From IMG/VR virus record IMGVR_UViG_3300025652_000161, positions 1 through 41,349 of that record: a DNA stretch of 41,349 nucleotides. One strand, written 5' to 3'. The notes beneath the pieces are model-generated. The model was not told where the DNA came from. It ran no database searches and saw only the letters and a list, made by a program, of their open reading frames with translations. This document shows positions 2,773 to 41,349 of this stretch, one piece after another. Positions within the stretch are counted from its first letter, which is position 1. Every line of letters starts with the position of its first letter. A program made the translations under genes and the position numbers. Origin of the DNA: a virus.

Positions 2773-2801
2773 GTATTACGCTGTAATGTGCTAAATCTTA
2801 C
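2773..2801 (-). promoter_or_regulatory. Leftward promoter candidate, containing a dispersed motif
   Basis: On the minus strand GTAAGA (2796-2801) is followed after exactly 17 bases by TAATAC (2773-2778). The same arrangement, sharing GTAAGATTTAGC, lies upstream of the gene at 5405. The spacer contains TAGCACATTACAGCGT, which recurs exactly at 10607-10622. It occupies one of the few gaps in the leftward gene block. Confidence 0.5.
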
Positions 2802-3714: not shown

Positions 3715-3881
3715 GCTTTTGCCTCCAAGTATAGTGCTTGCAAACGCTTCCGCGCTGCCATGAATGCTGGTTCAGTTAAGTTTAACGTGCGTTCATCATA
3801 CCCCCACGGTTGGTAGCCATGAGTTGCTGTCATGCGCTCCCACATCTTCCTGTAGGTTCTGTGTATTTGTTTTTTGTTCAT
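3711..3881 (-). CDS. 56-residue basic protein
   Basis: An open frame of 56 codons (MNKKQIHRTYRKMWERMTATH..., ending LQALYLEAKA). It is supported by perfect four-base ATGA overlaps at both ends: its ATG at 3879-3881 with the upstream stop, and its TGA at 3711-3713 with the downstream ATG. Helical and basic. Function not recognised. Confidence 0.65.
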   Translation of the reverse strand: MNKKQIHRTYRKMWERMTATHGYQPWGYDERTLNLTEPAFMAARKRLQALYLEAKA

Positions 3882-4198
3882 GCTTTTGCTCCCGTGATGG
3901 TGATTTTGCTTTTAACGACTACAACGCTGACGCTGTCGCCGACGTTTCCCAAATTCTCGACAAGCTCGCCGCGCAAATCCAACACGGGAAGTGCTTTGCC
4001 GTGATTCATCACGCGGGAGACTTTGCGCTTGGTTGGTTCAGCGCTGGGCGTGATTGTCAGCACGTTGCCGCGCTGTTTGGTTGCGATCGCTACGCCGTAG
4101 TCAAATCCGGCGTCAACGAGTTTGGGATTCCACAAGCAGACTCGCTTCTTTTGCTTGTTTTGCCCAATTCGGGCTGTTTGTTTGTGTATTGGTTTCAT
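3878..4198 (-). CDS. Possible AbrB/SymE-like beta protein
   Basis: A 106-residue protein. The first third is basic. The rest reads as two short beta units: AGFDYGVAIATKQRGNVLTIT, then a segment with ALPVLDLRGEL, LGNVGDSVSVVVVK and ITIT. The phrasing 'G, gap, GDxVxVxV, K, ITIT' resembles swapped-hairpin AbrB/SymE-type folds, which bind DNA or RNA. The similarity is weak and unverified. The downstream gene overlaps by ATGA. Confidence 0.5.
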   Translation of the reverse strand: MKPIHKQTARIGQNKQKKRVCLWNPKLVDAGFDYGVAIATKQRGNVLTITPSAEPTKRKVSRVMNHGKALPVLDLRGELVENLGNVGDSVSVVVVKSKITITGAKA

Positions 4199-4312
4199 GG
4201 TTTTTGTGGCTCTCGCCGTTTGTATTTACGTTTCGGGGTTGTGTTTCTTACTTTTAAGCGATCGCAATGCGTCGCGGTCTACACTCCGAAGAGCGCAGAG
4301 CGCGGGGCATTA
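4199..4312. other. Short gap in leftward operon
   Basis: About 110 bases without a convincing gene. An 18-codon frame starts in TGATAATG directly after the upstream stop but has no recognisable content. The last part before 4198 is A-rich with GAGAG, which may serve as a ribosome-binding site. Confidence 0.4.
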
Positions 4313-5000: not shown

Positions 5001-5405
5001 TTAGCCGTAGTAGACCACTCCTCGCTTGTTTTCGGCGCGAAGCACTACGTCTTGAAAAGTGGTTTTGGAGTCGATGCTTGCGCCCGTCTCAACGTCGGTA
5101 AAGCACTTGTCGCGACGCGGGTTGTAAGTGCATTTGCCCATAGCCGGATACGTGAAAGTGACGCTTGACGGGCTGAGTGCTTGCGCCAGCGAGAACTTGT
5201 CAATTTCACCAATAACCCAAGCGTGAACCGACTTCTTGCCGCCGTCCGCTATCTTCTGGCGTGCTTTGTCATTCACGTGGAAGCGTGCGTTGACTAAGTG
5301 GATGTTACTTGTGTAGCCAATCACCTTGCCGTTTTGCACTACGCTAAAAACGTAATTGCCTTGCTTGGCTTGGTTAATGTTCCAGTATACTTTTATTTTT
5401 TGCAT
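5001..5405 (-). CDS. First gene of the leftward operon, unknown function
   Basis: A 134-residue basic protein (MQKIKVYWNINQAKQGNYVFSV). A beta-rich first half with NGKVIGYTSNIHLVNARFHVND is followed by HAWVIGEIDKFS. Not recognised. The promoter candidate at 5431-5459 lies about 25 bases upstream. Being first in an operon read away from the terminase suggests early expression. Confidence 0.65.
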   Translation of the reverse strand: MQKIKVYWNINQAKQGNYVFSVVQNGKVIGYTSNIHLVNARFHVNDKARQKIADGGKKSVHAWVIGEIDKFSLAQALSPSSVTFTYPAMGKCTYNPRRDKCFTDVETGASIDSKTTFQDVVLRAENKRGVVYYG

Positions 5406-5430: not shown

Positions 5431-5459
5431 GTTATACGTGTGGCGGGGCTAAATCTTAC
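5431..5459 (-). promoter_or_regulatory. Leftward promoter of the small-gene block
   Basis: On the minus strand GTAAGA (5454-5459), a 17-base spacer and TATAAC (5431-5436) precede the gene starting at 5405. It shares GTAAGATTTAGC with the promoter candidate at 2773-2801. It sits in the roughly 100-base divergent gap before the rightward terminase genes. Confidence 0.55.
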
Positions 5460-6262: not shown

Positions 6263-6284
6263 ACCCAGATTGCCAGATTCCCAG

Positions 6285-6347
6285 TGTTCGATAATCAAAC
6301 ATCCCAGTGTTCGATAATCGAACATCCCAGTGTAAGAAAATCGAACA
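6285..6347. repeat. Three 23-bp iterons with a 17-bp near-palindrome
   Basis: Three copies start at 6285, 6308 and 6331, exactly 23 bases apart. The central copy TGTTCGATAATCGAACA is a perfect inverted repeat (8-bp arms, one-base centre). The first has one arm change (CAAACA) and the third keeps only the right arm. They lie just upstream of the large terminase. Candidate repressor operators, late-promoter control or packaging recognition sites. Confidence 0.8.
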
Positions 6348-6363
6348 CTAATAAGTATATACT
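6332..6363 (+). promoter_or_regulatory. Rightward (late) promoter candidate overlapping iteron 3
   Basis: GTAAGA at 6332-6337 is followed by a TATA-like stretch (GTATATACT, 6355-6363). It repeats the -35-like hexamer and spacing of the leftward promoters. It overlaps the third iteron, so a protein bound there would control transcription of the terminase and virion genes. Confidence 0.45.
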
Positions 6364-21024: not shown

Positions 21025-21680
21025 TGACCAAATCTAACATAGCAAATTTTGTTGGCGAAAAAGTCCACAGCACAGACGACGACAGCCAAGCTGTCTTCAA
21101 GACGTTCGTGGATCGTCGGTACGAAATGATCTGGAACGCCGAGCTATGGCGTGAGTCGCTTGGGACGGTCAGCCAGACAGTTGCGTCCGGAACAGACACA
21201 GTGTCGTTATCTACAACGATGGATTTTCCGGTATCAGCGTATTGGGATGAGCGTGAGATTACGCCGGTGGATTATCAGCGGGTGTTCCAGATGAACCCAG
21301 CGCTGCTTGCGGAGACGGGAACGCCGACAGACTTTATTGTGCTGCCAAAAACCACTGGGCCAAGCGGTACATACTCGCAGATCAAACTGTTACGCATACC
21401 GGACAGCGCCAAGACGTTGCTGGTGCTTGGTAAGCTGTACGTAACAGAACTGGGAGACAACGACAGTCCCATGTTAAGCGGCATCGACAACACACTTGTG
21501 GCGTTTGTAGAAGCTGATGCGCTTGAATATTTACAGCAGTACGCAAAAGCCCAAGCGAAGCTGCAAGAAGCCGCAGCCCACTTGCAAATGATGCGAGATA
21601 TAGAAAAGCACCAGAGTGCGCGGATTCAACAGTTAGTTCCGGATGTGGAATCAACTTGGGGCTACAATGATTTTAACTGA
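21024..21680 (+). CDS. Tail adaptor / head-tail connector protein
   Basis: A 218-residue protein (NIANFVGEKVHS, then VDRRYEMIWNAELWRESLG, and a C-terminal FVEADALEYLQQYAKAQ helix) typical of adaptor proteins that join the portal to the tail nozzle in podoviruses. The ATG overlaps the tailspike end and the stop overlaps the nozzle gene start, giving a compact tail module. Confidence 0.75.
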   Translation: MTKSNIANFVGEKVHSTDDDSQAVFKTFVDRRYEMIWNAELWRESLGTVSQTVASGTDTVSLSTTMDFPVSAYWDEREITPVDYQRVFQMNPALLAETGTPTDFIVLPKTTGPSGTYSQIKLLRIPDSAKTLLVLGKLYVTELGDNDSPMLSGIDNTLVAFVEADALEYLQQYAKAQAKLQEAAAHLQMMRDIEKHQSARIQQLVPDVESTWGYNDFN

Positions 21681-23257
21681 TGCCACGCTACGCATCCAAC
21701 TTGCTTGATGAGCCGCTAGTATTCGACAATTCAATTTCGTTTATTGGTGGTCAGGTGAGTGGCGTGCGTCCAAATCTCTTAAACACCAACCAATTCAGCG
21801 ACGGCAAAAACGTAGACGTAGACACGTTCGGCACAGTTGCCACACGTAAAGGCACGTTAAAGTTTCCAGCGACAGCGCACTCAACGAACATACAAGGGCT
21901 GTCGTACTTCGATAACCCAACGCAGATAGTAGAGCGGTTGGTCAGCGCGACTGGCGGCAACTTGTACCGCTGCGACGTGGGTGGCGTTGGTTGGACGCAG
22001 TTGACGGGCTTAAAGAACACTGTTCACGCCACTAACCAAGTGGATTTTGTTCAACTGGTGGACAAGATGTTCGTGACTGACGGAAGCAGTGTGATGCGAA
22101 TGATCACGAACGACGCGAACAGCACGGTTCCAAGTGAACACGGTCTGGCGTTCACAAGCGTAACATCGCACACTAACCGCTTGTTTGGGTTTGGGGTAAC
22201 CGGACAACCAAACGATGGGTTATGGGCGTCTGACATACTAGACGGCGAAACGTGGAACACGACCACCAACCAGATACGGATCGGTGGACACAGTGGCGAT
22301 CCAATACGTGCGCTGCATTCGTGGCACGATTTTAATCTCCTGGTTTTTAAGGAGCGCAGCATATACATCGTTAACACAGACCCGTCGCTGTTGCTTGCAG
22401 CTAACTGGCAGATCAAAAAGATCAGCGATAGATTCGGCTGCGTGTCACGCCGGACAGTGGCTCAAGTCGGCGGAGATTGTTTTTTCTTGTCGCGATTTGG
22501 CGTGATGAGTATCGGCCAGATAATGAACGGGGCGCAGACCATTGTTGAGCCGGAGCCGATCAGCACGCCGATACGCGATTGGATCGAGAAAATCAACTGG
22601 TCGAAAGCCCACACAGCGTGCGGCACGTTCTGGGGTAATCGTTATCTGTTGTCGGTTCCCATTGGTTCAGATACTCCAAACTACACATTCGTTTTTAATA
22701 CAGTAACCCGTTCATGGACTGGCTACTGGACGAACTGGACGCCAACGGTGTACGCCGAGTCTGCGTTTGCCGGTGATCTACGTCTGCACTTTGGTCAAAC
22801 AGACGGCAAGGTGTTGAAGTGGCTGGAATATGTGTCGCAAGACGACGAGACTGACAGCACTTACAAAGACGATGGCAGCTTTTACCCGTCCCACATCAAG
22901 ACGCGTGCATTTGTGTTTCGCGACCAGATGAACGACAAGATCGGGCGTAACGCTGAGTTTGAATTTAACAAGAGTCGCGCCAACGTGGATGTATTCCAGA
23001 CGCGTGACGACACTAGCAGCGAGCAGCGGCTAAATCCGTACAGCATCGACACGTCGGAAGGCACTGGCGTTACTTTGCCAGACTCTTTGCCGTTTGTATT
23101 TGGTGATGACGCGGTGATTCGCAGAGCGTTTAGCACAGTGTCGAAAGGGACGTTTAACGAGGTGCAGTACCGAGTGTCGGCTGCGGAGAACAAGCTGCAA
23201 CTGCGTGGTGTCAAAGCCAGCGCGATTGTTATGGGGCTGGACGCCGAAAAGAGATAG
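21680..23257 (+). CDS. Tail nozzle / stabilisation beta-propeller protein
   Basis: A 525-residue, beta-rich protein with the family-typical start (SNQFSDGKNVDVDTFGTVATRKG-like wording near residue 35-60). Later come HTNRLFGFGVTG, NLLVFKERSIYIV and RFGVMSIGQIMNG. It resembles P22 gp10/T7 gp12-type nozzle propellers that close the tail and guide DNA ejection. It follows the adaptor gene directly, as in other podoviruses. Confidence 0.8.
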   Translation: MPRYASNLLDEPLVFDNSISFIGGQVSGVRPNLLNTNQFSDGKNVDVDTFGTVATRKGTLKFPATAHSTNIQGLSYFDNPTQIVERLVSATGGNLYRCDVGGVGWTQLTGLKNTVHATNQVDFVQLVDKMFVTDGSSVMRMITNDANSTVPSEHGLAFTSVTSHTNRLFGFGVTGQPNDGLWASDILDGETWNTTTNQIRIGGHSGDPIRALHSWHDFNLLVFKERSIYIVNTDPSLLLAANWQIKKISDRFGCVSRRTVAQVGGDCFFLSRFGVMSIGQIMNGAQTIVEPEPISTPIRDWIEKINWSKAHTACGTFWGNRYLLSVPIGSDTPNYTFVFNTVTRSWTGYWTNWTPTVYAESAFAGDLRLHFGQTDGKVLKWLEYVSQDDETDSTYKDDGSFYPSHIKTRAFVFRDQMNDKIGRNAEFEFNKSRANVDVFQTRDDTSSEQRLNPYSIDTSEGTGVTLPDSLPFVFGDDAVIRRAFSTVSKGTFNEVQYRVSAAENKLQLRGVKASAIVMGLDAEKR

Positions 23258-23283: not shown

Positions 23284-23655
23284 ATGGAAGCACTGAAAAA
23301 CATGCCGGTCGTAAGGCCGGTAAGAGACAGAGACGAGTTCATTAAATTAAATAATGAAGCACTTGAAGATAGGCATTTGGCAATTGCTCCGACTCACGTT
23401 TTTGAGAAGTCGGGAGATATTATTGGCTATGCTAATGTTGGAACAATGACACCCGTGAACACATGGTTCCACAGTAAAAAATGCAAGGCACGGGATAGTT
23501 TGCAGATAATTAACGTGTTGGAGAACATGGTTAGAATAAGTGGTGGTCAAGCGATGCTTGCACCAGTGAGCAATCAGTCGCCGTTTTTGCCGGTGATGGA
23601 TCGTTTCGGTTATATTAACATGGGGTCATCCAACTTAATGCTAAAAACTTTTTAA
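23284..23655 (+). CDS. GNAT-like acetyltransferase-fold virion-associated protein
   Basis: A 123-residue protein shaped like phage GNAT-fold proteins: AIAPTHVFEKSGDIIGYANVGTM (central strands), WFHSKKCKARDSLQIINVLENM, and a C-terminal SPFLPVMDRFGYINMGSSNLML. Known homologues lie beside internal virion proteins. The acetyl-CoA-binding loop is not obvious, so it may not be an active enzyme. Two GTAAGA motifs precede the ATG. Confidence 0.6.
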   Translation: MEALKNMPVVRPVRDRDEFIKLNNEALEDRHLAIAPTHVFEKSGDIIGYANVGTMTPVNTWFHSKKCKARDSLQIINVLENMVRISGGQAMLAPVSNQSPFLPVMDRFGYINMGSSNLMLKTF

Positions 23656-23657
23656 TT

Positions 23658-24524
23658 ATGGGTTGTTTTTGTCCAGATGAACCAGATTACGGAGCCGCTG
23701 CACGCGAGTCAGCAGCGGCTGACATTGAAACACTAGAAGCGCGGAAAAAGATGGAGCGACTGTCCCGTCTCGGTGAGAAGGGGATAGTTGAGTACAAAGA
23801 CGCAGACGGTCGATCACAAGTTACGTCAGTTGATTTTACTGGCATTGGCGACATCGACTTGTCCCGTGCTAATCTGGACTATTACATCGAGTCTGCTGGC
23901 AAAATCAGTGAGTCGATGCTGGAGCAGTCGGAAGAGTATGGTGTCCGGTTTGTCGAGCAGCGGCGCAAAGAATTAGAAGCAGCCGATCCGGAAGGATTTG
24001 CGATGCGCCAAGAAATGGGACGGAAAATCATGGAAGGCGGTGAGAAGCATTTCATGGCAGCCGCGAAAGGGGCTATGGCAGGGGCGCGTGGTAGCCAATC
24101 TGCTCGCGGCAATTTGTTTGGTAACGCTCCCAGTCTGCAAGAAGCGATGGCTGTTGGCGATGTGGGTTACCGGATGTACCAGCAAGATTTAGCCAACATG
24201 GGATCGTACGGAGCCGGTGTCGCACCAACAGCGCAGTTCGGCGCATTAAGCGGAGCGCAGCAAGGGGCTAATCCGTTTCAGGGGCAGAACATAATGCAAA
24301 GCGGAGTCGGCGTAATGAATAACGCTCAGCACGGACAAGCGACTGGCAGTATTTATCAGCAGCAAACACAGATGGCACAGCAGGGGAGTCCGTGGAGCCA
24401 GATCGGCGGCATGGCTGCTGGGCTTGGGCTGACGGCGTTGACTGGCGGTGCGGCTGGCATGGCTGGTGGTATAGGATTTGGTAAAGGAGTGAGCAATATG
24501 TTTGGGGTTACACCCGTTGCGTAA
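23658..24524 (+). CDS. Internal virion / ejection protein A
   Basis: A 288-residue protein, Gly/Ala/Gln-rich. A helical N-terminus (CFCPDEPDYGAAARESAAADIETLEARKK) is followed by Gln/Gly repeats (GAQQGANPFQGQNIMQ) and a hydrophobic tail (WSQIGGMAAGLGLTALTGGAAGMAGG) able to insert into membranes. Consistent with podovirus ejection proteins that build a channel through the envelope. First of three. Confidence 0.65.
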   Translation: MGCFCPDEPDYGAAARESAAADIETLEARKKMERLSRLGEKGIVEYKDADGRSQVTSVDFTGIGDIDLSRANLDYYIESAGKISESMLEQSEEYGVRFVEQRRKELEAADPEGFAMRQEMGRKIMEGGEKHFMAAAKGAMAGARGSQSARGNLFGNAPSLQEAMAVGDVGYRMYQQDLANMGSYGAGVAPTAQFGALSGAQQGANPFQGQNIMQSGVGVMNNAQHGQATGSIYQQQTQMAQQGSPWSQIGGMAAGLGLTALTGGAAGMAGGIGFGKGVSNMFGVTPVA

Positions 24525-24528
24525 AAAA

Positions 24529-25269
24529 ATGGCTAGTTTTTCAAGTGGACTACAGATGGGCATGGGGCTGGCGCGTGACGTGCGTTCAGCCAACATGGCG
24601 GCGGCTGATCGTAAAGAGCAGAAAGAGTATCGCGACATGCGAACCAAAGCGCTCAAGAAACAGATGCGCCGTGGTAAAAAAGCTGATCAGCGTGCTGACA
24701 AAGCTGATACTAGAGCCGACGAATTCCACAAAGAGCGCATGGCTGCGATGAAGCGAGCAGCAAACCCAATGGTTAACGACTATGACAACAAACGCGGACT
24801 ATTGGAAAGACACGACGAGACAATAAACGCTGTCGTTACGAGACATACCGCTCGCATGGGAAATCTCAACAAAGCAGTTATTGCTGCCCAAGAACTCAAG
24901 CTGCCAAGTCTTCCCAATTTGCTGGCAATGCAAGAGCGAGAAAACGAAAAGCACGAACAATTTTTATTTGGGCTAGAGCAGTCGTTTATGTCCGCGAGCA
25001 ACCGCCCGTCCCAAGGGACTGTTAGCGTGGCTCCGTATGTAGATCAGATGGGGAAACAGCATTACGGCGTAAAGCTGGACGGCGCTGACATGATAACAGC
25101 AGAAGCATTTTACAAGAAGATGAGCGGGATGGTCAGTAAGCAACCACCAACAGGTGATTTGAGAGGCATGTTTGACTTACCAAGCGGAACACCGGACGCA
25201 AAACAGCCAGCGGCAAGTGGGGCTGCACAACAATTAACCGATCCCAACATTGACAAGTTTCTGCAATGA
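24529..25269 (+). CDS. Internal virion / ejection protein B
   Basis: A 246-residue protein if started at ATG 24529; an in-frame ATG at 24502 overlaps the previous gene. Very helical and basic (KKQMRRGKKADQRADKADTRADEFHKERMAAM), with coiled-coil character. The C-terminus contains low-complexity Pro/Gly/Ala. Its stop overlaps the giant gene's start (ATGA at 25266-25269), as expected for an ejection-protein operon. Confidence 0.65.
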   Translation: MASFSSGLQMGMGLARDVRSANMAAADRKEQKEYRDMRTKALKKQMRRGKKADQRADKADTRADEFHKERMAAMKRAANPMVNDYDNKRGLLERHDETINAVVTRHTARMGNLNKAVIAAQELKLPSLPNLLAMQERENEKHEQFLFGLEQSFMSASNRPSQGTVSVAPYVDQMGKQHYGVKLDGADMITAEAFYKKMSGMVSKQPPTGDLRGMFDLPSGTPDAKQPAASGAAQQLTDPNIDKFLQ

Positions 25270-28200
25270 GCAAAGTCACGGATGCAGTCCGGCAAGCGTA
25301 CCCCAAGTACGCAGACGTTAGTGATGACGACTTAACTGCTGCCATCGGGCAAGCATATCCTGGTTATCTGGATGAGCAGAAGTTCCCCGACTTCTCACGA
25401 CGCTTCACCGAGCTAGACGAAGATTACAATTTTGACGGTGGCTGGCTGGGCGGCATGGCGAACGCTGTTCGTCGCGGATCGTTACGAGCCGAGATGGCTG
25501 ACTTGGTGTTTGACGAAAGCACGTACGGGCTAAAAGAGCAGACACCCGAAAGCGCCAAACGCATTGCCGAGCTAAACGAAAAGCTAGGCAAAGTGCGTGG
25601 CTCCGGCGCTCTTCAATATTACAGCAGCCCAGAAGCACAAGACAATTTCACGGGGCGCATTGGCAGTATGTTCGCTTCGTTTCCGGAGTTTCTAGCCGAG
25701 TCGCTGACATCACAAATGGTTGTCGGCGCGAAGATCATGCCAAAACTGTTTGGCACATCGGTAGCCACCGGAACGGCAGTGGGCGCGTTATCTCCAGACC
25801 CAATTACAACGGCTGCTGGCGCTGGGTTTGGTGCGATGTTCGGAATGGCTTACGGCAACGGCATCACCAGTTTGGCGCAAGAGTACACCGGCACGATGAT
25901 GGAAGTGCTGTCGGAAAACGGAGTAGACACATCAAACGCCGAGCAGTTGGAAGCGGTTTTTAAATCTGAAGACGGGAAGAAGATAATTTCAGAAGCTAAA
26001 GCCGCAGCGTATTCGCGTGGTGTTCCAATCGCAGCACTTGACGCTTTGAGTTTCGGCATTGCTGGGAAACTTGGTGGCATCGGCAAAGAGATGTTGTTCC
26101 AGTCGGCAATGGGTGGTTCGGGAGAACTAGCGGGGCAAGCCACATCACTCGCGGTGACCGGCAAACAACGCGGTAACGTGGAAGACGTTGTCATCGAAAT
26201 GGGAGTGGGCGCGTTTGCCGACGTGCTGACAGATGTTGTTCCGGCCACATTGGCGAAGACTGGTAAGCTGGGCAAATCCGAGAAGATAGAACTGGAGAAA
26301 CTGTTTGAAGACGTAAGCGATCGACAAGCGCAAATTGATGAAGCGGAATCGATTGAAGAAGACGCGGTACTGGAGCAGACAAAACAAGATTCTCAAGAAG
26401 TCGATCCGCTGGATGAAGCGGCTGAAGCATTGTCAGAAAAAGTTGTGGCCGTTGAACCGCAAGAAGCGCGGGTCAAGACGACGCTTACGCCAGTAGTAGC
26501 AGACACGGAAGATGGATCGTTTAATTCAGAAGCTGACGCAACATTTGGAGTACAAATCGGGAACACGGTCGATAGCGTACCGTACGCTCGTTTTGAGTCC
26601 GTTATACTTACTAACGATAATCGCGTTACTGCTACAGTTACTGCTGACGGCAGTCTGGTTGTTAATCCAGATGAGCTACGAGCGAATGCAGAAGACTCTG
26701 ACTTGTCGCAAGACGAGTATTTGAAGCGAGTCGTTCAAGAAGAAGCGATCCACGCAGCGCATTTAGATTGGCTCCAGACGGAGTACATCAAAGAGACAGG
26801 CGACACCAAGCTGCAAAACTTTGTGCCGTATTTTGTGCAACGCATGGAAGCGGTGGCTGGAGAGATGACGCCAGAACAAGTTGAGCTAGTGCAAGGCGTG
26901 TACGGCTCTGACATCGATGGCGCACGGCTGGGACTGGAGTATGTCCGGATGCTAACGCAACAACGCCGTGAGGGAAGTGTCACGGAGGGTCTGGGAATCT
27001 GGGAGTTCTACGGCACGCAACCCAATCCAGAAACGCGCAACTATTTTAAACGAGCAATCAACTGGGTACGCAAGCGTGTCCAACCCAAGACCAGAAAGAA
27101 AGACGCAGCGCTGGCAGCGGAAGCTTCACAGCAATTGGATGGGCTGGCTTCGTTGCTGGCTGACATTGAAACAAAGAAAGAAACAGCTACTGCCGAGCCG
27201 GAAGTTGGTTCACAACCAGACACGGCTTTCGTTAGTGGGTTAACAGCTTCGCCAAACGAACTGACGGCGGCAGCGTTACAAGCTGGTGAGCCGGTTGGGA
27301 TAGTTGCTGTCCCAAGTCTTAAAAACCAGCAGCTAATCCCTAGCAAGAATGTCGTTACTCAAATAACAGATCACGCTAACCGTGGCAAAAAAGTGTTTAT
27401 CGATTCGGGGGCGTTCAGAGCATTTAAGCAAGGGGTTAAAATTGACTTTGAGCAATTTTTTACAAATCTTGACAAGATATTAGCCAACATTGAAAAGCCG
27501 GAAAACGTGACAATTGTCATGCCGGACATTATTGGTGACCAAGAAGAAACGCTGAATTTACAAAACCAATTTGCAGCCAACATCCAAAAGTACATCGATA
27601 GTAGTTACGATGTTGTTGTGCCGATTCAAGCTGGAACTAAACCGGCTGCTGAAATGCACAAGCAGTTAGTGGAAAAGTTTGGTGAAAATTTTCGTGTCGG
27701 CGTACCGTCCAATAAAGAAGCTATGCCGTTGGATGATTTCCGTAATTTGGTTAGCGAAATAAAGCCATCAAAACTGCACTTGCTTGGAGTGGGGCCAGAG
27801 AGCGGGGCCGAGCAAGTTAGTGTTGTGCGAGAGTTATCACCCGAATCAAATATATCAGTTGATTCTAGTACCGCTGCTAGAGCGGCAATTGGCGCTGTCG
27901 TTCCAAGTAAGTCGCAAATTGCGTCACAAGAATTTAGAGAAGCAGTTCGCGACGAAAGAATAGACGAAACGGAAGAAGCTGGCAGCTTCTGGATGGACGA
28001 CCAAGAGTTTGATGAGTCAACTGCTCAAGAGTTAGCTGACGATATGCAATCTGAAATAACTTGGTTGAGCAACGATCAGAAGCAAGCATTTGTAGAAGAG
28101 CTTTTAGATGGAAACTCCATCAACGATTCATTCAAAAATCTTCACGACAAAAAGATTCTGGACGACGACGAGTATGAAGTAACAACAGAAGCATTTACAG

Positions 28201-31200
28201 ACCCGCGGTTCAGTGACATTGAAAATAAATATTTGCAAGAGCCGGTTGGTAGAGAAATGCTTGAGAAGCGTGGCACAACTGCAAAAAAAGAACAGTCCGT
28301 ACAACGGAAAGACGAGCGTCAAAAGAAAGTCGTAAAGAAAGCCAAGGGGCTTGCCGCGCAGAAAGAATTACAAAGTCGTGCCGTAGAGCTTGATGAGTTC
28401 CAAAAACAGACAGATGCAAACAGCGAAGTTGTAACTGAATATCTGCGCCGCAGAGTTCAGAAAATGAACATTAAAGATGATGCGGACGCGCAAGATGTTT
28501 GGACGCATTTGTGGGAGAAAGCTGGAAAGTGGCTGGAAACTCACGATGACTTGACTGGGTTTGGAGCTAAAACCATTGCTGAAAATAAGCTGAAAGACAT
28601 CGGGCGTAAATCCGGACGGCGCGGCCAGACGTTTTTAGATGAAACCCGCACGACTGACGAAGAGACTGGAGAGAGTGCAGTCACAACTGGCAAAGATAAA
28701 ACGACACTAACCCCCACCGGACGCGAAGCGATAAAGTTGTTGGAGGATTTTTTCGGCAGTCTGTCGCCAGATGAAAGAAACGTCTCCGCTTTGTTCACCG
28801 ACTCCACAGATGCAACTGCCAGCACGGTTGCTGATGCGCTTGGCATTAAAAGAAACGCGGTTGATCAGCGCAAACATCGGCTTCTGAAAAAGATGGAGAA
28901 ACACATGGCCGACAAGGGCTATGATCCATCTGTAATTAGCGAACTGTTACAAGCCGCGAAGAAGCGGAAACTATCCGGCGAGATCGTTCGGGAAGCGCGT
29001 GCGAAAGATTTAAAGGGGCAGAAGCTGAAAGACTTCATCAAGAAGAAGCTGGCAGCGTTGCCGGAGAAGCAGAAGCAGCAAGTATTGTCGGAGCTTGGCA
29101 TTGCCAAAGCCAACAAACCCACCCCCAGCAAGACGGCAGACAAAGCCGCAGCCGCATCGAACAGCAAGACCAAGCGTTTGAAGTTCACAATGTCGCTTGA
29201 GAAGACGCTGGCCGATGAGCGCACGAAGAAGAAGCTGGAAGAGCCACGCTCATTCTACGATCCGATCACCAACAAAGAGACGCTGGCTAAAGCTAATGCG
29301 CGAATCGATGAGATCGGTTTAGACGCAGCCAAGCGCGAGGTGATGGAAGCTGAAGCGCCAGACGCGGTAATCTCCGCTATGGGTATTGTGTTGTTCCAGA
29401 AGTTCCAAGCAGCCGGACGATTGAACGACGCTATCGACATCGCGATGCACGTTGCTGACATTGCCAAGACGCAGGGGCAAGCCATCCAAGTGTTGTCGAT
29501 TGTAAGCCGCTTGTCACCGGACGGCTCATCGTTGTTGGCGGCTCGCATCATCAAGCGTGCGAAAGCAAAGCCGGAAACGAAAGACGCAACCAAGAAGCAC
29601 ATTAAGAATCTCGGTGGCGAGAAGAAGATCATTGAGCGTGTCCACAAGAAAGCCAAGCGGCTGGAGCGTTTGCGGAAAGACGGCAAGCTGAACGACATCA
29701 CGGAGTTGTCAGAGTCGGCTGCGTTGCTGGAAGAGATCATGTCAGTGGCTCCGACGACCGTGCTTGGGAAGATACGGGCGTTCCACACAATAATGATGTT
29801 GCTGAATTTCAAGACAGCAATACGTAATGTTCTGGGCAACGTCATTCTGTTTGTGCCGGAAACGGTGTCCGACTTCGCCGACGCGGCAATCGACAAGACG
29901 ATGAGCGTGGTCACCGGCAAGCGCACCAAGATGCGCCCGTTCACGTATTTCGGGAATAAGTGGAAAGGGCTTAAACAACCCGTAAGAGATTTTAACGCTG
30001 GCATGGAGTTGGCTCGCATTGAAGGCGAGTCCAAACGAGCGCAACTACAGAAGGGCTTTGACACGATGGTCATGCTGGCGCGTCTAACGTCCCAGTCGAA
30101 GTTTGAGTTGCAAGACGTGAAGCGGATGAACGCCCGTGTGTTCGACAGCAAAGCCATGCGAATGCTGGAAGACTCGCTGACGTTGCTGCTGTCACCGGCT
30201 GACCGTGCGTTCTACGTGGCTGCGTACCGCGCCGAGCTTGCCAACCAGATGCAGATCGCCAAGACGGACGTACCCAGCAAAGAGATGGTTGAGTACGCCC
30301 AGATGATTGGGATGCGTGCGATCTACCAGAACGACAATTTTGTTAGCAAGGGGCTACAGAAAACGCGTGAGGGACTGAACTGGATAACGGCTGGGAACAA
30401 AGAGTTCGGGCTGGGCGAAATGTTCTTCAAGTTCACGCGAGTACCAGGATCGTTATTGATTCGTGGCTTAGAGTTTTCACCGGCTGGTTTTATTCGTGCG
30501 CTTTACCAGTTGATCCCCCCCGTGTTTGGCAAGCAGTTCAACCAGCGCGAGTTCGTTGCGGCATTTAGTCGGGCTGCTGTCGGCACGGGCAGCGCGTTCA
30601 CTATCGGTTACATGCTTGAGCAGCTTGGCGTGTTGACGGGCGCTGAAGCGGAAGACACTGACCAGCGTGAACTGGAGCGCGAAATGGGGTTCCAGCGTTA
30701 CTCGATCAACGCATCGGCTTTGAAGCGGGTGCTATTGTCGGGCAATTTCTTTACGCCACAGAAGCCGGAAGTCGGTGACTTTCTGGTGAGCTACGATTGG
30801 GCGCAGCCAGTTGCTATGCCAATGGCAATGGGCGCAATCGTGAGCCAGAAGAAGCGCACAGGCAAAGGCGAAGACGATGCCGCCAGCTTCATGGCCAGCA
30901 TGATTGGGGCTGGCGCAAAGACGCTGGAAGAGCAGCCGCTGGTCAGCGGGATATTCCAGTTGTTCCAGAAGTTCACGTACGCTAAACAGGAACTGGAAGC
31001 CAACAACCCGTACGGCACAGTCAAGGCGCTGCTAGACAGTTACGCCGAGTTACCAGCGACGTTTGTCCCGACAGCCGTCAACCAAGTGAATCAGTATCTC
31101 GACAATGTCAGCCGCAACTCCACGGCAAGCGATGGCTTTGACAAGCTAATTGACCGAGTAGCAGCACGCACGCCACTTCTTGGCGGCAAGATGACAGAGC

Positions 31201-31667
31201 GCCGGACGACGACCGGACAGCCACGGTTGAAGATTCCCAGCGGCAACACTTTTTTCAACGTGTTTCTCAATCCGGCATTCACGAACACGATCAAGTCCAA
31301 CCCAATCGGTGACGAGTTGATGCGGTTGTATCGTGACAGCGGGCAGAAGCAGCAGTTCCCACGCAAAGCCAAGCGCTCGCTGACGGTAAACGGTGAGCGG
31401 CAGAAGCTGGACGCGGAACAGATCGCCCGATACCAGCACGCCACCGGCAAGCTGACGATCTACCGATTTGACCATTTGATGCGGACAGATCACTACGTGT
31501 CACGCGGCGACGAAGATCGGGCGAAGATTCTGGCCAATGAGATGACTGACATTGGCACGGCGGTTAAGGTGCTGATGTTTGATCATCGCCCCAAGACCAT
31601 GCGAAAAGCTGCTCGCCGGATGTTGATGGAGTTACAACAGTCCGGTGTGGACTTGAAGCAGTTGTAG
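25266..31667 (+). CDS. Giant polyvalent ejection protein with TGT-like and sigma-like modules
   Basis: A 2133-residue protein. Residues 1-40 (SKVTDAVRQAYPKYADVSDDDL) resemble N-termini of internal virion proteins. Hydrophobic segments about 130-200 may insert into the membrane. About 492-499 reads EEAIHAAH, a possible zinc site. About 690-880 resembles a guanine-transglycosylase barrel (DSGAFRAF, Asp713; MPDIIGD; VPIQAG; VGVPSNKE; LHLLGVG; Asp866). About 1056-1210 resembles ECF sigma regions 2 and 4. The C-terminal third has NFKTAIRNVLGN, typical of large polyvalent phage proteins. It is probably injected with the genome. Domain calls rest on motifs read by eye. Confidence 0.8.
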   Translation: MSKVTDAVRQAYPKYADVSDDDLTAAIGQAYPGYLDEQKFPDFSRRFTELDEDYNFDGGWLGGMANAVRRGSLRAEMADLVFDESTYGLKEQTPESAKRIAELNEKLGKVRGSGALQYYSSPEAQDNFTGRIGSMFASFPEFLAESLTSQMVVGAKIMPKLFGTSVATGTAVGALSPDPITTAAGAGFGAMFGMAYGNGITSLAQEYTGTMMEVLSENGVDTSNAEQLEAVFKSEDGKKIISEAKAAAYSRGVPIAALDALSFGIAGKLGGIGKEMLFQSAMGGSGELAGQATSLAVTGKQRGNVEDVVIEMGVGAFADVLTDVVPATLAKTGKLGKSEKIELEKLFEDVSDRQAQIDEAESIEEDAVLEQTKQDSQEVDPLDEAAEALSEKVVAVEPQEARVKTTLTPVVADTEDGSFNSEADATFGVQIGNTVDSVPYARFESVILTNDNRVTATVTADGSLVVNPDELRANAEDSDLSQDEYLKRVVQEEAIHAAHLDWLQTEYIKETGDTKLQNFVPYFVQRMEAVAGEMTPEQVELVQGVYGSDIDGARLGLEYVRMLTQQRREGSVTEGLGIWEFYGTQPNPETRNYFKRAINWVRKRVQPKTRKKDAALAAEASQQLDGLASLLADIETKKETATAEPEVGSQPDTAFVSGLTASPNELTAAALQAGEPVGIVAVPSLKNQQLIPSKNVVTQITDHANRGKKVFIDSGAFRAFKQGVKIDFEQFFTNLDKILANIEKPENVTIVMPDIIGDQEETLNLQNQFAANIQKYIDSSYDVVVPIQAGTKPAAEMHKQLVEKFGENFRVGVPSNKEAMPLDDFRNLVSEIKPSKLHLLGVGPESGAEQVSVVRELSPESNISVDSSTAARAAIGAVVPSKSQIASQEFREAVRDERIDETEEAGSFWMDDQEFDESTAQELADDMQSEITWLSNDQKQAFVEELLDGNSINDSFKNLHDKKILDDDEYEVTTEAFTDPRFSDIENKYLQEPVGREMLEKRGTTAKKEQSVQRKDERQKKVVKKAKGLAAQKELQSRAVELDEFQKQTDANSEVVTEYLRRRVQKMNIKDDADAQDVWTHLWEKAGKWLETHDDLTGFGAKTIAENKLKDIGRKSGRRGQTFLDETRTTDEETGESAVTTGKDKTTLTPTGREAIKLLEDFFGSLSPDERNVSALFTDSTDATASTVADALGIKRNAVDQRKHRLLKKMEKHMADKGYDPSVISELLQAAKKRKLSGEIVREARAKDLKGQKLKDFIKKKLAALPEKQKQQVLSELGIAKANKPTPSKTADKAAAASNSKTKRLKFTMSLEKTLADERTKKKLEEPRSFYDPITNKETLAKANARIDEIGLDAAKREVMEAEAPDAVISAMGIVLFQKFQAAGRLNDAIDIAMHVADIAKTQGQAIQVLSIVSRLSPDGSSLLAARIIKRAKAKPETKDATKKHIKNLGGEKKIIERVHKKAKRLERLRKDGKLNDITELSESAALLEEIMSVAPTTVLGKIRAFHTIMMLLNFKTAIRNVLGNVILFVPETVSDFADAAIDKTMSVVTGKRTKMRPFTYFGNKWKGLKQPVRDFNAGMELARIEGESKRAQLQKGFDTMVMLARLTSQSKFELQDVKRMNARVFDSKAMRMLEDSLTLLLSPADRAFYVAAYRAELANQMQIAKTDVPSKEMVEYAQMIGMRAIYQNDNFVSKGLQKTREGLNWITAGNKEFGLGEMFFKFTRVPGSLLIRGLEFSPAGFIRALYQLIPPVFGKQFNQREFVAAFSRAAVGTGSAFTIGYMLEQLGVLTGAEAEDTDQRELEREMGFQRYSINASALKRVLLSGNFFTPQKPEVGDFLVSYDWAQPVAMPMAMGAIVSQKKRTGKGEDDAASFMASMIGAGAKTLEEQPLVSGIFQLFQKFTYAKQELEANNPYGTVKALLDSYAELPATFVPTAVNQVNQYLDNVSRNSTASDGFDKLIDRVAARTPLLGGKMTERRTTTGQPRLKIPSGNTFFNVFLNPAFTNTIKSNPIGDELMRLYRDSGQKQQFPRKAKRSLTVNGERQKLDAEQIARYQHATGKLTIYRFDHLMRTDHYVSRGDEDRAKILANEMTDIGTAVKVLMFDHRPKTMRKAARRMLMELQQSGVDLKQL

Positions 31668-38591: not shown

Positions 38592-39053
38592 ATGCTGACG
38601 GTGCTGCAAAGCGGTGCGCTGGGCGAGGCAATAGCCACGGCGCGTCTGCTACGCATGGGCTGCACGGTGTTGACCCCATCAACGCCGGAGCCGTTCGACA
38701 TAATGGCCATACTGAACGGTCGATGCGTGCGGGTGCAAGTGAAGGCTGCGTCCAGACCAAATCTGCATCAACGCCAGAAGCGCTACGCGTTTTCATGTTC
38801 TTACGGCGGGAACAAGCAGATGTACCCAGTGGGGTCGGTGGATATATTTGTGCTGGTAGCTACAGACATAGACCGTTGCTGGGTTATTCCAGCCGGAGAC
38901 ATGGATCGCAAGTCTGTAAAAATACCAGTCGTGACAAACGGTAAATGGCAAAAATATCTGGAAGCGTGGGAGCTATTAGAGCAGTACAGTGTGTCCCACG
39001 AAACATGTCAGAGTAGAAGTTCAATTTTAAATGGTAAAGAAAACTGCGTTTGA
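38592..39053 (+). CDS. PD-(D/E)XK endonuclease-like protein (second resolvase-like gene)
   Basis: A 153-residue protein: GALGEAIATARLLRMGCTVL, then PEPFDIMAILNGRCVRVQVKAA. The E, D and Q-x-K spacing fits PD-(D/E)XK DNA endonucleases of the type grouped with Holliday-junction or intron-endonuclease families. Later beta strands (VGSVDIFVLVATDIDRCWVIPAGD). Role in DNA processing is inferred. Confidence 0.65.
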   Translation: MLTVLQSGALGEAIATARLLRMGCTVLTPSTPEPFDIMAILNGRCVRVQVKAASRPNLHQRQKRYAFSCSYGGNKQMYPVGSVDIFVLVATDIDRCWVIPAGDMDRKSVKIPVVTNGKWQKYLEAWELLEQYSVSHETCQSRSSILNGKENCV

Positions 39054-39846
39054 AGTATTAAGTTTAGGTGCTGGTGTTCAGTCGAGTTGTTTAGCGCTCA
39101 TGGCAGCGCGGGGTGAAGTTGAGCCAATGCCGAAATGCGCCGTGTTTTCAGACACTGGGGCAGAGCCGGAAAAAGTCTACGATTACTTGTCTTGGCTCAC
39201 TGACGAATTGCCGTTTCCCGTGCATGTCGTACAACACAAGAGCGGACTAACCGCAAACATGGAAGACGCAATTAACAACGACGTGCGTATGGCACAGCCC
39301 CCGTTGTTTACAAAAAACCCAGACGGATCGCACGGCCAGATACCAAGAGTGTGTACTGTGGAGTACAAAATAAACCCCATTCGTAAGCTCACCAGAAAGT
39401 TGCTGGGGTTAAAGCCTAGACAGCGCCATAAAGATGAGCATTGCATTCAATGGATTGGCATTTCGCTGGACGAGATACAACGTATGCGAGAGTCTACGGT
39501 TCCGTATATTACAAACCGATTCCCGCTGGTGGAAAAGCGAATGCGACGTGGCGATTGCTTTGAGTGGATGAAGCGAAACGGATACCCAGAGCCACCGCGA
39601 TCCGCTTGCGTGTATTGTCCGTACCATTCCGATCATGAGTGGAGACGGATTAAGAAGACTGATCCAGAGGGGTGGAAAGAAGCGGTGCGTGTTGATGAGT
39701 TAGTGCGTGACGGATGGAAGAACATGGACAGCAAGATGTATTTGCACGCTGCAAGAATTCCGTTGAAAGACGTAGACTTATCGTCAGACGTGGATCGTGG
39801 GCAGTTAACTATGCTGGACGAATGTACTGGAATGTGTGGCAATTAA
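39031..39846 (+). CDS. PP-loop ATP-pyrophosphatase, PAPS-reductase-like
   Basis: A 271-residue protein. The PP-loop near the N-terminus reads SLGAGVQSSCLALMAARG, with an EPMPKCAVFSDTGAEP strand-turn following. A cysteine cluster (SACVYCPYHSDHEW) may bind zinc or iron. Family members reduce or transfer sulphur (PAPS reductases, DndC) or modify bases. The phage role is unknown. It overlaps the upstream nuclease gene by 23 bases. Confidence 0.75.
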   Translation: MVKKTAFEVLSLGAGVQSSCLALMAARGEVEPMPKCAVFSDTGAEPEKVYDYLSWLTDELPFPVHVVQHKSGLTANMEDAINNDVRMAQPPLFTKNPDGSHGQIPRVCTVEYKINPIRKLTRKLLGLKPRQRHKDEHCIQWIGISLDEIQRMRESTVPYITNRFPLVEKRMRRGDCFEWMKRNGYPEPPRSACVYCPYHSDHEWRRIKKTDPEGWKEAVRVDELVRDGWKNMDSKMYLHAARIPLKDVDLSSDVDRGQLTMLDECTGMCGN

Positions 39847-40081: not shown

Positions 40082-40299
40082 CTGACGAACAAATAAGAGA
40101 CAAGGGGCTGGCAGAATTTGCAGCCCGTGCATCCAAGAAGTTCAACGCGGGTATCCGTGAACACAACCCATGTGGGACGAAGGGGCTGTCGCGAATGGCG
40201 ACACTGCAACGAATCCGATCAGCCCAGGAAGAGGTGATGGATTTGTGGTTCTACTTGTACTCGGAAGAGCTATCAGCGCTGGGGTTCTTCGATGAATGA
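40078..40299 (+). CDS. Small MazG-like/helical protein (full copy)
   Basis: A 73-residue protein (EFAARASKKFNAGIREHNPCGTKGLSRM, then SAQEEVMDLWFYLYSEEL). The EE-x-x-D-x-W-x-Y-L helix resembles small MazG-type nucleotide-pyrophosphatase fragments. Weak match. Its last 59 bases and stop also form the left end of the window. The methyltransferase ATG overlaps its stop. Confidence 0.6.
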   Translation: MTDEQIRDKGLAEFAARASKKFNAGIREHNPCGTKGLSRMATLQRIRSAQEEVMDLWFYLYSEELSALGFFDE

Positions 40300-40871
40300 C
40301 GCACATCGATCTGTTCAGCGGGATCGGGGGGTTCGCATTAGCATGTCGTTGGTGCGAGCTAGAGACTATTTGCTTTTGCGAACAAGACCCGTACTGCCAG
40401 AAGATACTAGCAAAGCATTGGCCAGACGTGCCAATCGTCAGCGACATACGTGAGTTTGACGGAACACGATACACAGATGTCACTATTCTCACGGGTGGGC
40501 CACCGTGCCAGCCCGTGTCCGTCGCCGGAGAGCGTCGTGGGGAAGCAGACGACCGCTGGCTCTGGCCGGAGATGTATCGCGTTATTACGGAAGCAAGACC
40601 GCGTTTCGTCTTGTTTGAGAATGTTGCTGGTGTCCGAAACATGGGACTCGACGATGTTCTATCTGATCTGGAAGCCAGCGGGTACGCCACGGGGTCGGCT
40701 ATTATTCCGGCTTGTGCCATCGGGGCGCAGCACCGTCGAGATAGGTGCTGGGTATTGGCCGACTCCATCGGCGAACGACAATCGGGATCGGGGCCACTTG
40801 GGGATGCCATCCATTCAGCGACGCATCAAGAAGGGGAAGCAGTTAAACTTGGGGATGGTAGCGTCGGATAA
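40296..40871 (+). CDS. Cytosine-5 DNA methyltransferase, catalytic part
   Basis: A 191-residue protein with C5-methyltransferase motifs: I (DLFSGIGGF, 5-13), IV with catalytic Cys71 (GGPPCQP), VI (FENVAG, 107-112) and VIII (QHRRDR, about 145-150). It transfers a methyl group to cytosine, presumably to protect phage DNA from restriction. TAA at 869-871 of the 40-kb block ends this frame before the segment with motif X, which follows in the same frame at 40872. Motifs IX and X are thus missing from this chain. The left-end copy of the gene is deleted. Confidence 0.85.
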   Translation: MTHIDLFSGIGGFALACRWCELETICFCEQDPYCQKILAKHWPDVPIVSDIREFDGTRYTDVTILTGGPPCQPVSVAGERRGEADDRWLWPEMYRVITEARPRFVLFENVAGVRNMGLDDVLSDLEASGYATGSAIIPACAIGAQHRRDRCWVLADSIGERQSGSGPLGDAIHSATHQEGEAVKLGDGSVG

Positions 40872-40938: not shown

Positions 40939-41054
40939 CTGCACTCGGCAACGCGATCGTGCCGCAACTGGCTTACGTGCTGATCAAGACGCTACTCAAT
41001 CATCAACCCAGCAGCAGCGAGTCGGCCCCGCAAGCGCTGGCGAATGATCTCTAA
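40872..41054 (+). CDS. C-terminal methyltransferase part with motif X (possible split subunit)
   Basis: Same frame as the methyltransferase, starting with GTG immediately after its TAA. It contains SVEPELGRVAYGVPNRMERL and the motif X phrase ALGNAIVPQLAYVLIK. If started independently it would be a small second subunit, as in known split C5-methyltransferases. Otherwise it is the tail of a gene broken by one nonsense codon. It overlaps the minus-strand gene ending at 40992. Confidence 0.5.
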   Translation: MWSVEPELGRVAYGVPNRMERLTALGNAIVPQLAYVLIKTLLNHQPSSSESAPQALANDL

Positions 41055-41216
41055 CGATTGCGCTGAATAGTACTCACCGCCCATGTTAAGCACGTCCGTC
41101 AGTAGCTCGTCCGTCTCGATCACTGTGTCGCGATAGTCGATGGCGCGAGACGCTTGGAATGCCATTTGCTCAAACAACTTTTTGTTTCGCTCAGTTAGAG
41201 TTTCTTCATCCACCAC
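40992..41216 (-). CDS. Small conserved protein, right copy, GTG start
   Basis: The right-end copy of the 74-codon gene at 122-346, with several substitutions. The position of the left ATG is GTG here (41214-41216), so the start codon has changed without loss of frame. The body (TDVLNMGGEYYSAQSLEIIRQ) is conserved. Confidence 0.55.
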   Translation of the reverse strand: MVDEETLTERNKKLFEQMAFQASRAIDYRDTVIETDELLTDVLNMGGEYYSAQSLEIIRQRLRGRLAAAGLMIE

Positions 41217-41349
41217 TTTGTGAAGTTTGGGTTGTCTTGCAGCACGGTGCAAAGTCCTGTTGACAGCAGCCGCACCAAGCGCTCTTCAGTCTGCTCTCCA
41301 GCCAGAGCCAGCGCGTCAAACAGCGCGTGCATAATTTCGTGAAGCAAAG
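41195..41349 (-). CDS. Metallopeptidase-fold protein, right copy, cut by window edge
   Basis: The C-terminal 50 codons of a second copy of the gene at 325-639. The zinc motif reads HEIMH instead of HEITH, then HALFDALALAGEQ. The N-terminus is beyond the window. Confidence 0.7.
   Translation of the reverse strand, partial: LLHEIMHALFDALALAGEQTEERLVRLLSTGLCTVLQDNPNFTKWWMKKL

Follow-up and report, generated by a model that had tools for sequence, protein, structure and literature searches.

Phages such as N4, the phiKZ-like phages and P23-45 inject whole RNA polymerases into their hosts, and T4 injects a polymerase-modifying enzyme, Alt. The locus described here raises the question of whether a phage could deliver, inside one of its virion proteins, only a sigma subunit for the RNA polymerase of the host. 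The stretch of DNA analyzed, called the window below, is a 41,349-bp IMG/VR virus record (IMGVR_UViG_3300025652_000161); its gene content, which includes O-like and DnaC-like replication genes, looks like that of a temperate short-tailed phage. The genes that frame the locus are the following.

6395: large terminase (terL)
8424: portal
11638: major head protein
21680..23257, plus strand: P22 gp10-like 'phage stabilization' protein, which anchors the ejection-gene position
23284..25269, plus strand: three small genes (123, 288 and 255 aa) in the interval between the gp10-like gene and the giant (ORF map)
25266..31667, plus strand: predicted ejection/polyvalent virion protein of 2133 aa with the sigma module (ORF), referred to as the giant
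31833, minus strand: integrase

An earlier note on this DNA had read the middle of the giant as an ECF-sigma-like module embedded in an injected virion protein, with sigma region 2 at about residues 1056-1110 and region 4 at about 1165-1210. All five peptides quoted there are in frame in ORF 25266-31667, namely YLRRRVQKM (aa 1059-1067), DAQDVWTHLWEKAGKW (aa 1074-1089), FGAKTIAENKLKDIGRKSGRR (aa 1099-1119), FFGSLSPDERNVSALF (aa 1162-1177) and ASTVADALGIKRNAVDQRKHRLLKKM (aa 1185-1210), and they jointly span aa 1059-1210, or DNA positions 28440-28895. We place an ECF-type sigma-70 module, consisting of sigma2, an acidic linker and sigma4, at giant residues ~1046-1215.

28407..28622, plus strand: sigma region 2-like part, aa 1048-1119 (TIGR02937 alignment; helices with pLDDT ~70; Foldseek matches to ECF sigma factors)
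28623..28745, plus strand: acidic sigma2-sigma4 linker, aa 1120-1160 (alignments; predicted disordered)
28746..28898, plus strand: sigma region 4-like helix-turn-helix, aa 1161-1211 (Sigma70_r4; pLDDT ~80; 3hug match)

The full 2133-aa protein matched the NCBIfam sigma70-ECF profile TIGR02937 with E=8.4e-7 in one continuous alignment, in which giant aa 1052-1213 correspond to profile positions 10-164 of 165 and both regions are covered in the right order. When the isolated segment was searched, TIGR02937 gave E=1.1e-8 and PHROG_1740 ('RNA polymerase sigma factor') E=5.9e-9; the match to Pfam Sigma70_r4 was weak (E=3e-4) and under the family cut-off. The window copy scores 28.8-35.1 bits, under the curated TIGR02937 cut-off of 42.9. 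A six-frame search of the whole record returned a single sigma match, at 28419-28907, which nearly coincides with the interval of the earlier note (28425-28910). The note's reading of both sigma regions, and of their ECF order and spacing, is borne out. In the window and its relatives alike, the layout is that of ECF factors, with sigma2 followed by sigma4, a short linker and no sigma3. The linker motif ET..D.ETG is kept in the alignments of both subgroups described below, and disorder is expected for the linker of a free ECF sigma. A PDB sequence search with the segment or its three-row profile gave nothing significant, and tblastn of the window protein or the segment found no match among named phages.

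A first scan of the genome collection with the giant as the query found nothing, and searches seeded with the giant recovered only L002-L005; the wider family surfaced through the gp10-like protein and the terminase. The contigs of relatives were fetched through the gp10-like neighbor, with the terminase as a second entry point, and the full records were searched with TIGR02937. The module was found at the same place in eight relatives, comprising L002, L003 and six more distant giants. The L002 and L003 giants are 66% identical to the window protein overall and ~55% identical in the sigma segment, and they match TIGR02937 end to end independently (E=4e-6 and 5e-6). The six others, which we term subgroup B (G003, G005, G006, G007, G042 and G045), score 50-62 bits against TIGR02937, over the cut-off of 42.9. 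In the N-terminal half they can be aligned with the window protein and share its QEE[AS]IHxAHL motif, whereas their C-terminal half differs from that of the window protein. Because subgroup B lacks the TGT-like stretch described below and has a different C-terminal half, two protein versions that differ elsewhere both keep the module. In every member whose giant gene is fully covered, the module sits in a protein of 1900-2150 aa and not in a free-standing protein of ~200 aa.

The module is under purifying selection, with dN/dS of 0.13-0.37 across pairs (the window-L002 value is rough, as its dS is near saturation), and the window's copy is diverging faster than the sequence on either side of it. 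Subgroup A (the window, L002 and L003) has a divergent sigma2, and subgroup B is missing the canonical region-2.2 sequence. In the records searched with TIGR02937, the giant was the only match that covered both sigma regions; weak partial matches in W01, W02 and G011 were confined to region 4. The giants behind the gp10-like genes of phages ctf1B273 and C75C1 carry no sigma module. By tblastn, crAss-like phages and contig MT836231 were seen to encode sigma factors, but as free-standing proteins.

A profile built from the seven phage segments alone, when run against five bacterial genomes, retrieved free-standing ECF genes of 190-266 aa and matched them nearly end to end, with E down to 1e-11. 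Comparison of an AlphaFold model with ECF sigma factors had been proposed as a check, and we built AF2 models from window-derived alignments without bacterial sequences. With 3 sequences in the alignment the model was poor (pLDDT 55.8); with 7 it improved to a moderate pLDDT of 64.6, with sigma2 at ~70, sigma4 at ~80 and the linker disordered. Although the global confidence of the models is low, the Foldseek matches in the PDB were almost exclusively sigma factors or sigma chains of RNA polymerase complexes, ECF types first, the best being 9m9e_F (E=4.2e-4). Region 4 matched 3hug_E, the domain with which an ECF sigma factor of M. tuberculosis binds the -35 element, with a TM score of 0.75, and among viral models the matches were mostly phage sigma factors. 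The profile searches, the reciprocal profile, the fold comparison, the conservation in two subgroups and the purifying selection all agree with the sigma identification; we regard the homology as practically beyond doubt, and we consider that the module, as judged from its sequence, probably works as a sigma factor.

The position of the giant bears on how the module might reach the cell. At the end of the structural operon, the gene order is gp10-like gene, three small genes and giant, and relatives share this order. In P22, gp7, gp20 and gp16 come after gp10, and the giant likewise follows the gp10-like gene and the three small genes. Family searches with the small genes gave no matches; by position only, they occupy the place of P22 gp7/gp20 or T7 gp14/gp15. 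The C-terminal half of the subgroup-B giants is homologous to Lederberg_8 of Pelagibacter phage Lederberg (25.6% identity, E=1e-21), a hypothetical protein whose gene lies two genes past one annotated as an internal virion protein and immediately ahead of the tail fibre gene, which is the T7 gp16 position. The C-terminus of the window giant itself has no match among named phages. Gene position, together with the homology between the relatives' giants and a protein in the place of T7 gp16, favors the earlier description of an injected virion protein, and the giant is likely delivered together with the phage DNA. Two other features of the giant bear on whether it is a protein of the polyvalent type.

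26736..26765, plus strand: QEE[AS]IHxAHL motif, aa 491-500 (alignment of nine giants)
27360..27578, plus strand: TGT/DpdA-like (queuine tRNA-ribosyltransferase-like) stretch, aa 699-771 (PHROG_887, E=4e-5), with the domain as a whole put at 27360-27890 (aa 699-875)

The motif, invariant in all giants whose sequence spans it, recalls a metal site or a degenerate metallopeptidase; it could belong to a protease whose role is to release the sigma module. The TGT/DpdA-like stretch, which is absent from the subgroup-B giants in the alignment, could have a role in the modification of nucleic acid bases, or it may be a remnant. Of these parts the sigma module is firm, and injection would follow from the gene position.

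The earlier note had named GTAAGA sites in this genome as candidate targets. The bare hexamer is not enriched in the window (17 versus 13.1 +/- 3.6) and was dropped as a promoter definition. By contrast, the bipartite element GTAAGA-N15-CGTA is enriched (3 copies versus 0.16 expected), and all three copies (5459, 4251 and 2801) are on the minus strand, each upstream of a leftward left-arm gene.

5434..5459, minus strand: candidate sigma promoter GTAAGA-N15-CGTAT; ATG 28 nt downstream; gene 5001-5405 (phage L5 gp82 family)
4226..4251, minus strand: candidate sigma promoter GTAAGA-N15-CGTAA; ATG 27 nt downstream; gene 3878-4198
2776..2801, minus strand: candidate sigma promoter GTAAGA-N15-CGTAA; gene 2295-2729

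A matrix trained on the window sites ranked left-arm sites of G006 and G007 first (19.9-24.0 bits versus shuffled maxima of 17.5/19.0); in the reverse test, window site 4251 scored 22.0 versus 17.4 for shuffled sequence, and the other two window sites fell inside the shuffled range. An unbiased scan that enumerated every 4-mer pair across seven left arms returned TAAG-N16-CGTA as the top dyad, with 13 copies versus 0.23 expected and a presence in 7/7 arms; a whole-genome dyad scan had been uninformative, as coding repeats swamped the signal, and the restriction to left arms gave the clear result. Whole-genome scans allowing one mismatch found almost only left-arm sites. The flanks are conserved as well (A after GTAAGA, A before CGTA and AT after CGTA), while the invariance of the boxes themselves is built into the search.

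Between one and four copies of the element, in the form GTAAGA-N15/16-CGTA(A/T), occur in each close-clade contig with >=1 kb left of terL. The element is absent from contigs with <0.9 kb left of terL and from distant contigs (terminase 53-60% identical), except for L113, which has an unrelated copy of the type seen at 6332, and L132, where the match is a chance one in a coding region. Over 39 records, the element occurs in 10/10 of the close clade, and the 29 others, controls that lack the sigma module, hold two single matches, as many as for the reversed pattern. The promoter proposal survives for 3 of the 17 hexamers, each of which forms part of a conserved, promoter-like bipartite motif whose occurrence is almost confined to relatives with the sigma module; it does not survive for the bare hexamer. 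Within subgroup A, the pairing of motif and sigma module is seen in the window only, because the L002 and L003 contigs have no left arm, and the association as a whole is not phylogenetically independent, because the sigma-carrying phages are one clade. ECF promoters take forms such as GGAAC-N16/17-CGTT and TGAAAC-N16-CGTA, and GTAAG-N16/17-CGTA shares their spacing and the form of their -10 box.

In three genomes of likely-host Verrucomicrobiota with related terminases (15.8 Mb), the element occurs 4 times and a reversed control 13 times; because it is rarer than its control, it is not a common promoter in those genomes. A search for Sigma-70-type promoters in the right arm found 1 versus 7.3 expected and gave no support for them. 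Just downstream of 11/16 sites listed for the relatives lies a small inverted repeat, GGC-N4..7-GCC (or GCC..GGC), for example at window 4190-4226. At the predicted 5' end of the transcript, it could form a 5' hairpin or serve as an operator; the sites in G042 and some in G045 are without it and look nearly leaderless.

Upstream of terL, at window ~6270-6355, is an array of 2-4 copies of a 17-bp palindrome (TGTTCGATAATCGAACA / TGTC-N9-GACA type) spaced ~22 bp apart, whose position is kept in all relatives while its sequence drifts. It is probably the control array of the late operon. The GTAAGA at 6332, upstream of terL, was rejected as a promoter site, being a decayed copy within this array. 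The terL operon has no sigma element, and because it has an array of its own, left-arm and late genes appear to be differently controlled.

These results suggest the following course of events. The giant would be made late, packaged into the virion and ejected along with the genome; once in the next cell, its sigma module would bind the host core RNA polymerase and steer it to GTAAG-N16/17-CGTA promoters before the leftward left-arm genes, which would allow immediate-early transcription without prior phage protein synthesis. We propose the function because of the homology and the co-occurring promoters, and the delivery because of the gene position. The whole model, an ejected giant whose ECF sigma module recruits host RNA polymerase to left-arm promoters, is in our judgment reasonably likely. 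As the module lies within a 2133-aa chain, proteolytic release may be needed before it can bind RNA polymerase; this point, together with delivery and early timing, is where the model is weakest.

Several other explanations have to be weighed against this one. The module might be a working sigma factor that acts only after new synthesis, late or upon prophage induction, and that is fused to a structural protein by happenstance. The giant gene does lie in the late structural operon, known phage ECF sigmas (phiEco32 and 7-11) serve middle or late promoters (PMC8948821), and the left-arm genes include one for a lytic-transglycolase-like protein that could be late. However, the terL operon carries the conserved TGTC-N9-GACA array and no sigma element, left-arm products resemble accessory genes, such as that of phage L5 gp82, and a sigma for late use need not sit within an ejection protein in both subgroups; we therefore hold this explanation to be unlikely. 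Somewhat less probable still is that the module is a sigma-derived adaptor for RNA polymerase or DNA that does not initiate transcription, and that either tethers the polymerase to the ejection channel to pull in DNA or blocks host transcription. Genome entry of T7 is coupled to transcription, which sets a precedent, and the divergence of sigma2 in subgroup A and the missing region-2.2 sequence in subgroup B would suit such an adaptor; yet both promoter-binding regions and the linker are under purifying selection, and a dedicated promoter-like element co-occurs with the module.

The element, in turn, might be unrelated to the module, being read by a host sigma factor or serving as an operator for a phage regulator. 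Its co-occurrence with the module in a single clade and the GGC/GCC repeat downstream of many sites, a possible operator, are compatible with this, but the repeat is missing at several sites where both boxes are invariant, the spacing and the CGTA box fit ECF promoters, and the Verrucomicrobiota genomes with related terminases contain fewer copies of the element than of its reversed control; we consider this quite improbable. That a helical virion segment resembles sigma factors by chance is hardly credible: the window copy does fall under the curated cut-off of TIGR02937, but eight relatives match independently, six of them over the cut-off, and the reciprocal profile and fold searches concur.

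If the favored model of an ejected sigma module is correct, delivery of the sigma subunit alone would be a smaller solution to a problem solved elsewhere by injected polymerases, and a domain for transcription initiation would cross the portal and tail and then work, or be cut free, in the cell. We lean, if only slightly, toward the view that there is a class of phages that packages a promoter-specificity factor and not an RNA polymerase, the host core enzyme being redirected before any phage gene is expressed. The sequence specifies both the protein segment and the promoter set, which makes the case open to direct testing.

Known systems offer partial parallels. Among proven cases the nearest is the phage 7-11 sigma gp47, which, together with host core RNA polymerase, uses GTAAtg-(16)-aCTA promoters in vitro (PMC8948821); these promoters are close in form to GTAAGA-(15/16)-CGTA. 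The phiEco32-like ECF sigmas (phi32_gp36 and 7-11 gp47) are likewise phage-encoded, but they are free-standing, and the genes they serve are late in 7-11 and middle and late in phiEco32, whereas the module of the window lies inside an ejection-type protein of ~2000 aa and has left-arm genes as candidate targets. The virion RNA polymerase of N4/Schitoviridae is a giant (~3500-aa) ejected protein that begins phage transcription on entry (PMC12633501); N4 delivers a whole RNA polymerase, whereas the window phage would deliver only a promoter-specificity factor for the host enzyme. In P23-45, a virion RNA polymerase fused to the tail-tape-measure protein transcribes the pre-early genes (PMC10770324). 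Here too a transcription component is fused to a giant structural protein, but it is a catalytic RNA polymerase and no sigma, in a long-tailed Thermus phage. T4 Alt, a packaged and injected ADP-ribosyltransferase, acts immediately to reprogram the RNA polymerase of the host (described in PMC5512222), by covalent modification and with no sigma role.

Polyvalent proteins combine several domains in one large chain and enter the host along with the phage DNA (Iyer et al. 2017; PMC5512222). The giant may be of this kind, having a TGT-like stretch and a conserved metal-site-like motif besides the sigma module; a sigma domain is not mentioned in the text of that paper. The ECF sigma of SU10 was detected by mass spectrometry through one peptide in an unpurified preparation (PMC4281155), and on both grounds we rejected it as evidence of packaging. 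Our search of open-access papers turned up no packaged, injected or virion-associated sigma factor, and no earlier case of one built into an ejection protein.

Verrucomicrobiota are the likely hosts, as suggested by terminase relatives and an ECF subfamily match. Terminases ~50% identical to that of the window occur in Verrucomicrobiota MAGs, and also in two MAGs labelled Chloroflexota/Aquidulcis, and the ECF subfamily model matched by the window module is that of Rhodopirellula/Verrucomicrobium. For this uncultured phage lineage, apparently associated with Verrucomicrobiota, the element provides a handle on early genes and hosts. Two Verrucomicrobiota MAG contigs with terminases ~50% identical, L142 (JAJVHY010000025.1) and L143 (CAMCXS010000033.1), one of them labelled Akkermansia, may be prophages and could lead to a relative that can be cultured.

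Some further features of the window were observed. Its ends overlap, with positions 1-99 identical to 40240-40338 and 99-398 92% identical to 40969-41268, as if the genome were circular or redundant and its ends stemmed from variants with and without ~630 bp; this ~630 bp includes most of a DNA methyltransferase gene. A gene of the PAPS reductase family (window 39031-39846; PHROG_424, E=1e-43) lies among the replication genes. In the late operon, a small protein encoded at window 17588-17983 matches the mechanosensitive-channel beta domain (PF00924, over cut-off), and its gene is adjoined by short ORFs whose products are possibly membrane-spanning.
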